The notes beneath the pieces were generated by a model that was given only the letters and a program-made list of their open reading frames with translations, searched no databases and was not told the origin of the DNA. From NCBI RefSeq assembly GCF_002917105.1, contig NZ_PQFZ01000009.1, positions 1 through 64,000 on the forward strand: 64,000 nucleotides of DNA, written 5' to 3'. The stretch is from Allobosea psychrotolerans (GTDB lineage: Bacteria > Pseudomonadota > Alphaproteobacteria > Rhizobiales > Beijerinckiaceae). Below, one piece after another: positions 44,689-46,986 of the stretch (position 1 is its first letter; the number at the start of each line of letters is the position of its first letter). A program made the translations under genes and the position numbers.

Positions 44689-44763
44689 GCGGGCGTAGTT
44701 CAGTGGTAGAACGTCAGCTTCCCAAGCTGAATGTCGTCGGTTCGATCCCGATCGCCCGCTCCA
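44689..44763 (+). tRNA. tRNA-Gly (anticodon CCC)
   Basis: Complete cloverleaf: acceptor GCGGGCG pairs with CGCCCGC (44753-44759); D-arm AGTTCAGTGGTAGAAC; anticodon stem TCAGC/GCTGA with loop TTCCCAA, giving anticodon CCC; T-arm GTCGG-TTCGATC-CCGAT. The 3' CCA is encoded (44761-44763). A second copy of its 3' half lies at 58467-58511, so this tRNA may have served as an integration site. Confidence 0.95.
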
Positions 44764-44950: not shown

Positions 44951-46021
44951 TCACCCAGGCAGCGCGCGCATGGCCGCGCCGATACAGATGATCAGCATCA
45001 TCGCCGGCAGCGCCCAGCGCAGATGCCAGCGCAGATCGGCCGCATGGCCACGCCAGCGGGAGCTCGGCTGGGCGATGGCCACCGACAGGGCGATCTCGAA
45101 CATCAGGACCGCGACAAGATAGAGGTAGCCGAGCGAGATCATCTCCGCCACGGGCGTATTGAGGGAGATCGAGCCCGGGAAGGAGGATTCGAAGGTGAAG
45201 CTGATCGCGGCCAGGGCCAGCAGCGAGGAGAAGATCAGCCCGCCCTTGTCCTGTTCCTTCAGCCCCGGAGACCAGAGCACGAACAGCGAGACCGCCAGCA
45301 CGGCGATGATGGGGACGAAAATGCGCAGCAGGTAGCGCTCTGCATAGCGCGCGATCGTCACCGTTGCGTTGAGACGCGAGTAGGAGCGCGCGTTCCAGCC
45401 GATCACCTGGTCATTGGCGAAACGCAGTCCGATGGGGCGCCAGTCGACGACCGAGAGTGTGCTTTCGATGCCGGAGAAGGGGCGATCGGCTTCCGTGGTC
45501 AGGACGATCGCCTCCTGCTGCGCATAACGCGGCAGCGAAAGGCCGATCGTCAGATTCTGCCTGTCGAAGGGAAAGGCGTCCATGTTCATCCGGAAGCGGA
45601 AATCGCTTTCGAAGCGCTCGATCAGGACGGCTTCGCCGTCGGCATGCACGGAGAACGCAACGGTGCGCGCGTCCTTCTCCCCGATCTGGTTGTCGAGCGA
45701 AAGCCCGGGCGACCAGATGGTCTTGAGGCTGTCGTCGGCCTCGTCGCCCACCTTGTCCTCGCGTGCGAGGCCGCGCGCGACGGCGTCGAAGGCGAGGCGT
45801 GGATCTCGCCAGCGCTGGGTCAATTCGAGGTGGAGGCGCCCCTGCCCGGACACCTCCTTGATCTCCAGGATGTTGAGGACGCGCAGGGCCACGTGAACGC
45901 GCACGGGCAGGCCGGCGGCTTGGGGCAGGCTGGTCTTGCCGCCATTTGGCGGTTCGTCGGCCGAGGCTCCGCGCATGAGGCCGATGAGCAGCAGAAGCGT
46001 CAGGGTGAGGAGGCGAGTCAT
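44951..46021 (-). CDS. Prokaryotic pentameric ligand-gated ion channel (Cys-loop/Pro-loop receptor)
   Basis: A 356-aa channel subunit with every landmark of prokaryotic pLGICs (GLIC, ELIC). Signal peptide 1-22. The extracellular beta-sandwich spans about 38-225: VHVALRVLNILEIKE, then LTQRWRDPRLAF, IWSPGLSLDNQ (W103-x-P105) and the Pro-loop FPFDRQNLTI (F150-P-F-D). Four helices follow: M1 about 229-250 (FVPIIAVLAVSLFVLW), M2 about 259-280 (GGLIFSSLLALAAISFTF), M3 about 290-316 and M4 about 335-353. The pore entrance is rich in E256 and D258, suggesting cation selectivity (inference). It lacks the loop cysteines, like other bacterial members. Translation is coupled (ATGA overlap) to a double-Cache protein. 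Confidence 0.93.
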   Translation of the reverse strand: MTRLLTLTLLLLIGLMRGASADEPPNGGKTSLPQAAGLPVRVHVALRVLNILEIKEVSGQGRLHLELTQRWRDPRLAFDAVARGLAREDKVGDEADDSLKTIWSPGLSLDNQIGEKDARTVAFSVHADGEAVLIERFESDFRFRMNMDAFPFDRQNLTIGLSLPRYAQQEAIVLTTEADRPFSGIESTLSVVDWRPIGLRFANDQVIGWNARSYSRLNATVTIARYAERYLLRIFVPIIAVLAVSLFVLWSPGLKEQDKGGLIFSSLLALAAISFTFESSFPGSISLNTPVAEMISLGYLYLVAVLMFEIALSVAIAQPSSRWRGHAADLRWHLRWALPAMMLIICIGAAMRALPG

Positions 46022-46986
46022 GCGTCGAGCCGTCGCCTTTGACCCGACAGCACGAGAAATCCGACGAAGGCCAGTATCCCGCCGCAAAGAGCGATGACCC
46101 AAAGCTCCGTGCCGAGGCGGCGCCAGTCGGACTGGGAATCCTCCTTGAGCATCAGGACCGTCCCGACGAGCTTCCCGGAGAAGTCGACGAGCGGCTGGCT
46201 CATGAACGCATAGCTGCGCTCGCCGATCTGCTTCTGTCCGATCTCCACATCCCGCAGCGGCTTGATCGTCTGGGAACGCAGCAAGGCCAGAAATATCGGA
46301 TCATCAGTCGATGCCATGATCGTCAGCTCGCCGACCGAGGGCAGCTTCGGATCGAGCGCAACGCCGGTCAGGGACGCGGCTGCTATCACCGCGATCTCGC
46401 TATTGGTGGTGGTTTTGACGAGTTCGATCAGCGGGCGCAGGTCGAAACCGATCTCCATCGTGCCGAGAAAGTCTTCGCCGCGCTGGACGAGCGCGACGCC
46501 GCGGATGCCGATGCCCGCGATGCCGATCTCGACCCCGGTCTGGGCCCGCCGAAGCCGATTGGCCGCAACGATCATCGCGCGAAAGGCGGAGATGTCGTCG
46601 CCGTGCTGATCCGGTCGATGCATGCGGAGCAGATAGCGCAGGTCTTTGCCGTGATAGCCGAAGATCTGTACGTTCGCCTGGCGGCCCAGATACTGGTAGG
46701 CCTCGTTCGACAAGGCCTGCAATCGGGCGCGATCTTCGGCCGCCAGCGCGTCGCGGATCTCGGCGTTGCGTGCGAAGGATTCGGCGAGCGACAGCGAGAA
46801 TTTGGCGGCCTGTTCGAAGCTGGAGCTCAGCAAGGTTCCAACCAGCCGCATCTGCGCCTCGCGACCGCGCGACGCTGCGCCTTCGAGGCTGCGCTGCTGG
46901 TGCCACAGCATCGCCCCGAGAATCAGGGCGATGAGAAGCGCTGGCAGCCCTGCGATCAGCAGGCGCTTCCTGGAAACCGATAGCAT
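46018..46986 (-). CDS. Double-Cache (dCache_3-like) membrane sensor without output domain
   Basis: A 322-aa protein: helix at about 8-28, a long extracytoplasmic region, a second helix near 294-313 (LWVIALCGGILAFVGFLVLS), and only about nine basic residues in the cytoplasm (GQRRRLDA). The extracytoplasmic part has dCache_3-like blocks FGYHGKDLRYLLRMHRPDQ, GVEIGIAGIGIRGVALVQRG and FLGTMEIGFDLRPLIELV, as found in sensor kinases and chemoreceptors. With no kinase, HAMP, GGDEF or MCP domain it cannot signal by itself. The 4-nt overlap with the ion-channel gene suggests it is the channel's ligand-sensing partner. Confidence 0.88.
   Translation of the reverse strand: MLSVSRKRLLIAGLPALLIALILGAMLWHQQRSLEGAASRGREAQMRLVGTLLSSSFEQAAKFSLSLAESFARNAEIRDALAAEDRARLQALSNEAYQYLGRQANVQIFGYHGKDLRYLLRMHRPDQHGDDISAFRAMIVAANRLRRAQTGVEIGIAGIGIRGVALVQRGEDFLGTMEIGFDLRPLIELVKTTTNSEIAVIAAASLTGVALDPKLPSVGELTIMASTDDPIFLALLRSQTIKPLRDVEIGQKQIGERSYAFMSQPLVDFSGKLVGTVLMLKEDSQSDWRRLGTELWVIALCGGILAFVGFLVLSGQRRRLDA

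Follow-up and report, generated by a model that had tools for sequence, protein, structure and literature searches.

The 64,000-nucleotide stretch of the Allobosea psychrotolerans genome analysed here (hereafter the window) carries on its minus strand a gene encoding a membrane protein that has a dCache_3 sensor domain and no output domain, directly followed by a gene for a pentameric ligand-gated ion channel (pLGIC), and comparison across genomes established that the two form a real, strongly conserved two-gene unit. Because the pairing has been kept over evolutionary time, control of the channel by the sensor is probable. Leaving aside any carboxylate nature of its ligand, we propose with moderate confidence that the Cache protein is a ligand-sensing auxiliary subunit of the pLGIC. 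A functional partnership of the two proteins is highly probable and a physical complex between them is likely, while the balance tips slightly towards gating of the channel by a ligand of the Cache protein. The elements of the pair are as follows.

46018..46986, minus strand: gene for the output-less dCache_3 membrane protein, first of the pair, 322 amino acids (open reading frame, Pfam, AlphaFold model).

44951..46021, minus strand: pLGIC gene, second of the pair, 356 amino acids (Pfam Neur_chan_LBD, GLIC match, model).

46018..46021, minus strand: ATGA stop-start overlap, predicted to couple translation (read from the sequence; an overlap is present in 20 of 21 distinct junctions).

The two genes adjoin on the same strand, which matches the operon criterion of Tasneem et al., and overlap by four nucleotides, the stop codon TGA of the Cache gene lying at 46020-46018 and the start codon ATG of the channel gene at 46021-46019. 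A longer, TTG-started channel frame (start 46102) is also present, and the ATG was taken as the channel start because the family alignment supports it. A scan for promoters and terminators found a single candidate of each, close to the yield from shuffled sequence. A genome-wide search returned one dCache_3 protein and one pLGIC, which are the members of this pair. An earlier note, made from the letters alone, had read the locus as a complete pLGIC whose ATG shares four nucleotides with the stop of a gene for a dCache_3-like membrane protein with two helices and hardly any cytoplasmic part, and each of these elements was recovered, including the W-x-P and FPFD motifs and the four helices of the channel; the Cache protein is indeed without an output domain, and the genome holds no other dCache_3 protein to supply one. 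The note took the channel itself to be the output that the Cache protein lacks, a reading borne out in part: a lack of the pair elsewhere was among the findings that it would have counted against this reading, and the pair proved to be kept throughout the loci described next.

The Cache gene adjoins the pLGIC gene in 22 of 22 distinct loci of the window's pLGIC subfamily, a count of loci with the neighbourhood read, further clade members being represented only in the protein database. Overlapping stop and start codons (ATGA, GTGA or TGATG) were present in 20 of the 21 junctions read, the exception being G210. At the order level, 297 genomes were sampled, of which 27 gave a match to the channel and 52 to the Cache protein; ten subfamily pLGICs were found in nine genomes, all ten with a Cache gene directly upstream, and the other 18 channel-bearing genomes encode distant pLGICs, all outside the paired clade (15 and 3, in two trees). 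The remaining Cache matches are frames of at least 581 amino acids except three short ones, which were rejected as output-less Caches: in G014 and G296 the frame runs off the contig, and G152 has a weak, partial match in a frame of 183 residues. Of 61 genomes of the genus, 12 encode the channel and 18 a dCache_3 relative; all 12 channel genomes carry the adjoining output-less Cache, and the other six dCache_3-bearing genomes have long receptor frames. An output-less dCache_3 protein was present in none of the 49 channel-less genomes of the genus, a count that holds because the remaining six are accounted for by long receptor frames and by G704, whose short Cache frame (L117) mimics an output-less Cache and is a full-length dCache_3 chemoreceptor split by a frame shift.

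Wider sampling gave the same picture. Among 239 genomes of the phylum, 11 besides the window's own had a pLGIC match, with one further pair, in G762; of the other ten pLGICs, eight fall outside the paired clade and two were incomplete and left off the tree. Of 11 genomes from the genus to which G762 belongs, G762 alone was seen to have the pair, and two short Cache frames there were discarded, L152 (G809) as a chemoreceptor gene split by a frame shift and that of G794 as cut by a contig end. A class-level sample of 385 genomes, in which at most five candidates were scored per genome, yielded no new pair, its six further pLGIC matches being five outside the paired clade (4 and 1) and one fragment. 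The Cache matches listed for the class are frames of at least 607 amino acids except two HAMP-bearing frames, of which the 443-residue one is cut by a contig start and the 405-residue one lies near a contig end, with receptor homology continuing past its stop; neither was accepted as an output-less Cache. The genomes with context read showed neither gene of the pair intact without the other. Eleven neighbourhoods of 13-17 kb have only these two genes common to all, other shared stretches being other reading frames of the same genes or confined to two loci. Chance adjacency was rejected by the order and genus surveys. Genome G065 has a Cache-pLGIC pair at each of two sites; the two pairs are divergent, their channels being about 45% (L036) and 37% (L058) identical to that of the window.

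Co-inheritance was assessed by comparing the Cache and channel trees for 41 pairs, 22 from loci read and 19 matched by identical length of the longest contig. The Mantel correlation was 0.90, against a maximum of 0.55 in 2000 permutations, and 27 of 38 splits were common to both trees. The 22 paired pLGICs lie on one side of a branch from 21 unpaired ones (Shimodaira-Hasegawa-like approximate likelihood ratio test, SH-aLRT, 99), the 22 paired Caches likewise from 30 dCache_3 proteins of the methyl-accepting chemotaxis protein (MCP) type (SH-aLRT 100), and, of 13 more pLGICs added to the tree, only that of the G762 pair entered the paired clade (SH-aLRT 99), all of these being quick trees with long-branch warnings. 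The trees are consistent with one ancient Cache-pLGIC association. A Bosea genome devoid of the usual pair (G688, L100) has a clade-2 pair at 25% identity, suggesting horizontal transfer of the pair; because of this and the patchy presence within the genus, pairs appear also to have moved by transfer. Such transfer could in principle be the whole explanation, the genes travelling together with no shared function, and both the patchiness (12 of 61 genomes) and the Bosea clade-2 pair point to gene transfer. We nevertheless regard linkage without function as hardly credible, since adjacency and overlap persist down to 24-26% identity, across two clades and in changing surroundings, and since intact unpaired members of either gene are missing from the genomes with context read.

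Output-less sensors can act on full-length relatives, and the Cache protein might accordingly modulate another receptor, for instance as a heterodimer with a full chemoreceptor, sharing only its transcription with the channel. Other dCache_3 relatives do occur in seven Bosea genomes, within receptor genes that are long or frame-shifted; six of these genomes lack the channel and one, G680, has it. However, the pair's Cache is the sole dCache_3 protein of the window's genome, which excludes a heterodimer with a full dCache_3 receptor there, no other gene is common to the 11 neighbourhoods, and in the genus the channel and the output-less Cache occur in exactly the same 12 of 61 genomes, so that a separate role for the Cache protein is very improbable.

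The features of the Cache protein that bear on sensing are these.

46141..46827, minus strand: dCache_3 periplasmic sensor domain, residues 54-282.

46624..46626, minus strand: codon of Arg121, the putative equivalent, by spacing, of CitA Arg66 and DcuS Arg107.

46501..46503, minus strand: codon of Arg162, the putative equivalent of CitA Arg107.

46042..46107, minus strand: second transmembrane helix (TM2), with Gly302; predicted span, residues 294-315 or thereabouts.

Pfam dCache_3 matched residues 54-282 with E=1.4e-23 (84.2 bits, cut-off 25.7) and was the only family above the Pfam cut-off in the protein, with no VWA domain. The AlphaFold model (predicted local distance difference test, pLDDT, 92.8; predicted template modelling score, pTM, 0.85) has one long N-terminal helix (residues 4-72) and a C-terminal one (285-321) on either side of a double alpha/beta sensor domain, that is, the double-Cache fold between two transmembrane helices of dCache_3 sensors; with the membrane limits predicted from this model, at most some ten residues would be left for the cytoplasm. 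Structure comparison placed the sensor fold closest to the carboxylate sensors CitA, DcuS and DctB, and the membrane-distal Cache (residues 54-183) superposes on citrate-bound CitA. Within the superposed range, Arg121 and Arg162 share an offset of 55 to CitA residues 66 and 107, a correspondence by spacing and not by coordinates, and a weak profile match pairs Arg162 with an Arg of Geobacillus CitA. We take CitA Arg107 to be a carboxylate-site residue and Lys109 to be a site residue in CitA only; the equivalent of Lys109 is absent from the Cache protein, which has Val164 at that position. His123 stands two residues after Arg121, whereas CitA His69 stands three after Arg66, the +3 position here being Arg124.

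Arg121 is present in all 22 paired rows and in all 30 MCP-type relatives (for the role of CitA Arg66 and DcuS Arg107, see the accessible part of PMC5595915). Arg162 occurs in 17 of 17 clade-1 rows, in none of the five clade-2 rows, which have Phe there, and in 30 of 30 MCP rows. Arg121, Arg136, Gly151, Gly158, Glu178 and Gly180 are identical in the 22 paired and 30 output-bearing rows, and Asp130, Asp131 and Asn143 are kept in 21 of 22 and 30 of 30, respectively. Other positions distinguish the paired Caches from the MCP-type proteins, namely Thr227 (22/22 versus 1/30), Asp182 (20/22 versus 0/30), Ile154 (20/22 versus 1/30) and, in TM2, Gly302 (20/22 versus 2/30).

Scanning of eight Cache relatives showed that five have all three domains of dCache_3-HAMP-MCPsignal receptors, the other three being paired Caches. 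Divergent paired Caches retain a tail of some 50-70 residues, and the window's branch has none after TM2. Of 12 tailed paired Caches scanned, three gave sub-threshold HAMP traces (P0229, E=4e-4; L058, 0.0058; L123, 0.035) and no HAMP trace was found in the other nine. Because the tail is gone in the window's branch and HAMP traces persist in tailed members, these comparisons suggest that the Cache subunit is a truncated dCache_3-HAMP-type receptor. As the tail was lost while pairing was kept, the output of the Cache subunit would lie in the membrane or the periplasm.

For the channel, the following features are relevant.

45563..45574, minus strand: FPFD Pro-loop, channel residues 150-153 (family alignment).

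45392..45400, minus strand: GWN at the tip of loop C, channel residues 208-210, with the pairing-specific Trp209.

45182..45256, minus strand: predicted pore-lining M2 helix, channel residues 256-280 (model and GLIC alignment).

Neur_chan_LBD was detected with E=5.3e-16 (59.2 bits, cut-off 26), and residues 33-344 match GLIC with E of about 5e-16. The model (pLDDT 89.6, pTM 0.81) has four helices, 228-250, 256-280, 290-317 and 324-353, as in the four-helix fold of full-length pLGICs; W-x-P lies at residues 103-105, and Pro151 and Asp153 of the Pro-loop are present in all pLGICs compared, 22 paired and 21 unpaired. In contrast, Trp209 is present in all 22 paired pLGICs and in none of the 21 unpaired ones, and in 93 of 95 family rows, both exceptions lying outside the paired clade. 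In the model it sits where the loop-C hairpin turns from strand 194-207 to strand 213-225, and loop C is shorter in paired channels than in most unpaired pLGICs in the alignment. In M2, alignment to GLIC places the acidic Asp258 at about -1' and Leu268 at 9' (our own prime numbering), with Asp or Glu at position 258 in 84 of 95 family rows, consistent with a predicted cation selectivity of the channel. Trp209 of the channel and Thr227, Asp182, Ile154 and Gly302 of the Cache protein are the best candidate contact sites.

Combining these observations, it is tentatively speculated that the sensor of a chemoreceptor was parted once, long ago, from its signalling domain and that it now responds to a di- or tricarboxylate by gating the pLGIC laterally in the membrane, with the key agonist site on a separate subunit; taken whole, this chain of steps is possible, and we would not count on all of it to hold. 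The two genes would encode an obligate two-protein receptor, in which the Cache protein, derived from a dCache_3-HAMP-type receptor with its cytoplasmic output cut away, would share a membrane with the pLGIC homopentamer and serve as its auxiliary ligand-sensing subunit. In the window's branch, the membrane-distal Cache may bind a small di- or tricarboxylate via Arg121 and Arg162. Citrate binding to CitA is described as a piston-like pull on TM2 and DcuS as undergoing a piston-type shift (accessible parts of PMC11754779 and PMC7857512), and ligand binding here would likewise contract the sensor and shift TM2. The change would be passed sideways to the channel and not into the cytoplasm, coupling being possible at loop C (Trp209) and/or through packing of TM2 (Gly302 face) on the channel transmembrane helices, and opening of the channel would then let cations flow. 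In this scheme we infer the physical complex, the ligand class, the direction and site of coupling, the cation selectivity and the physiological output.

Several observations weigh against such a sensory complex, in whole or in part. Besides its pair, G720 (L101/L154) has a 49-residue channel piece, 57% identical and with an in-frame stop, with no Cache found in the surrounding 5 kb; it is probably the decayed remnant of a second copy. Pairs move by transfer, and tree congruence alone is therefore no proof of contact. The pairing-enriched residues may instead belong to folding or to the orthosteric site, and, for the cation step, the best structural matches of the channel are animal anion receptors.

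Two further explanations accept the partnership and assign the Cache protein another task. Some transmembrane partners serve assembly or trafficking of animal pLGICs, and the Cache protein could similarly be needed to fold or place the pentamer without being a ligand switch. Titles of PDB entries name animal GABA-A receptors in complex with a partner, GARLH4, and the exclusive co-occurrence, the overlap and the co-inheritance require an obligate partnership only. We consider a pure assembly, stability or trafficking role unlikely, given that the conserved sensor residues, Arg121 among them, would be unneeded by a chaperone if they form a ligand site. Alternatively, a stand-alone Cache may collect and present a small molecule that binds the channel's own orthosteric site, the mechanism put forward in 2004 for periplasmic binding protein (PBP), MCP-N and Cache partners of bacterial pLGICs (accessible text of PMC549065). 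The loop-C Trp, invariant in the 22 paired channels, would be compatible with an agonist site of the channel's own; however, the two-helix anchor and the pairing-enriched residues, including Gly302 in TM2, exceed what a concentrator needs, and loop C is the shorter one in paired channels, so that this role is rather unlikely.

If the Cache protein does act as a ligand-sensing subunit, a chemoreceptor sensor has been rewired onto an ion channel, giving the dCache_3 family a second kind of output, ion flux, and, as far as our literature searches reach, no bacterial pLGIC would have been shown to have an auxiliary sensory subunit before. To our knowledge, most bacterial pLGICs have no known natural agonist, and the pair bears on what these relatives of our neurotransmitter receptors do for the bacteria that encode them: a conserved, exclusive sensor partner with a carboxylate-type pocket would offer an agonist class and residues to mutate, channel Trp209 and Cache Gly302.

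Outside the pair, a tRNA-Gly gene (anticodon CCC) lies at window positions 44689-44763 on the plus strand, just past the 3' end of the channel gene. The paired-Cache profile gave no match in those flanks of unpaired pLGICs that were fetched (1.5 kb or to the contig end), and a Pfam search of hand-picked long open reading frames in such flanks revealed one dCache_1-like neighbour, in G149. There (L079, 2932-7947), an ELIC-like pLGIC gene lies between the gene for a pyridoxal phosphate-dependent decarboxylase and that for a Cache/PDC sensor membrane protein, whose C-terminal part looks by eye like a histidine kinase, with a major facilitator superfamily-like transporter next; the amine product of the decarboxylase may be the channel agonist. 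None of seven long pLGIC frames scanned contained a Cache fusion. Five of the seven are PBP fusions (L127, L128, L129, L131 and L133, from the phylum sample), frames of about 660-740 amino acids with an N-terminal Peripla_BP_6, a kind known since 2004.

The earlier note knew of no described system of this form, a claim refuted by Tasneem et al. (2004), who predicted an operon of a stand-alone Cache and a pLGIC in Rhodopseudomonas and proposed functional cooperation and a role in chemotaxis; the accessible text also describes Cache and MCP-N fusions with pLGICs and neighbourhoods with PBP-II genes (PMC549065). The window's pair thus belongs to a kind first noticed in 2004. Four of four placed Rhodopseudomonas pLGICs (five are named) fall inside the window's paired clade (SH-aLRT 100), and the likeness between the two systems is drawn by channel clade, the Rhodopseudomonas Cache being represented here by its description; no Rhodopseudomonas-named row occurs among the 120 listed of 255 matches of our Cache search. 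In the accessible text, that pair is reported for one bacterium, with no ligand, co-occurrence or co-inheritance analysis (PMC549065). A full-text literature search for pLGIC terms jointly with Cache, whose coverage excludes most subscription journals and all bioRxiv preprints, found no paper. A word search of the pLGIC survey of Jaiteh (2016, PMC4795631) found neither Cache nor operon, the table of a 2016 Cache survey lists, in its accessible part, no ion-channel architecture for dCache_3 (PMC4822843), and the accessible part of the 2025 DeCLIC paper states that little is known of the N-terminal domains of prokaryotic pLGICs (PMC12664993).

Single-chain pLGICs with an N-terminal sensor (Cache, MCP-N or PBP fusions, and DeCLIC) likewise add a periplasmic module to a pLGIC, whereas the module of the window is a separate membrane protein with two transmembrane helices of its own. 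Unlike the CitA, DcuS and DctB histidine kinases, the window's Cache has neither a kinase nor any other cytoplasmic output, and its sensor is a double Cache where those of CitA and DcuS are single. The alpha2-delta subunit of animal voltage-gated calcium channels carries a VWA domain and is anchored differently. It is also a Cache-bearing auxiliary channel subunit (accessible parts of PMC549065 and PMC4822843), but it serves another channel family and shares no homology beyond the Cache, that of the window having no VWA domain. The closest relatives of the sensor are the dCache_3 chemoreceptors (dCache_3-HAMP-MCPsignal), whose conserved sensor residues are nearly identical, whereas the paired Caches lack the MCP signalling domain, have lost HAMP or keep it as a vestige, and form a separate clade. 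What is new relative to the 2004 description, as far as sequence and model comparisons indicate, is the one ancient pairing, the loss of output, the carboxylate-sensor-like fold with its two matching arginines, and the pairing-specific residues.
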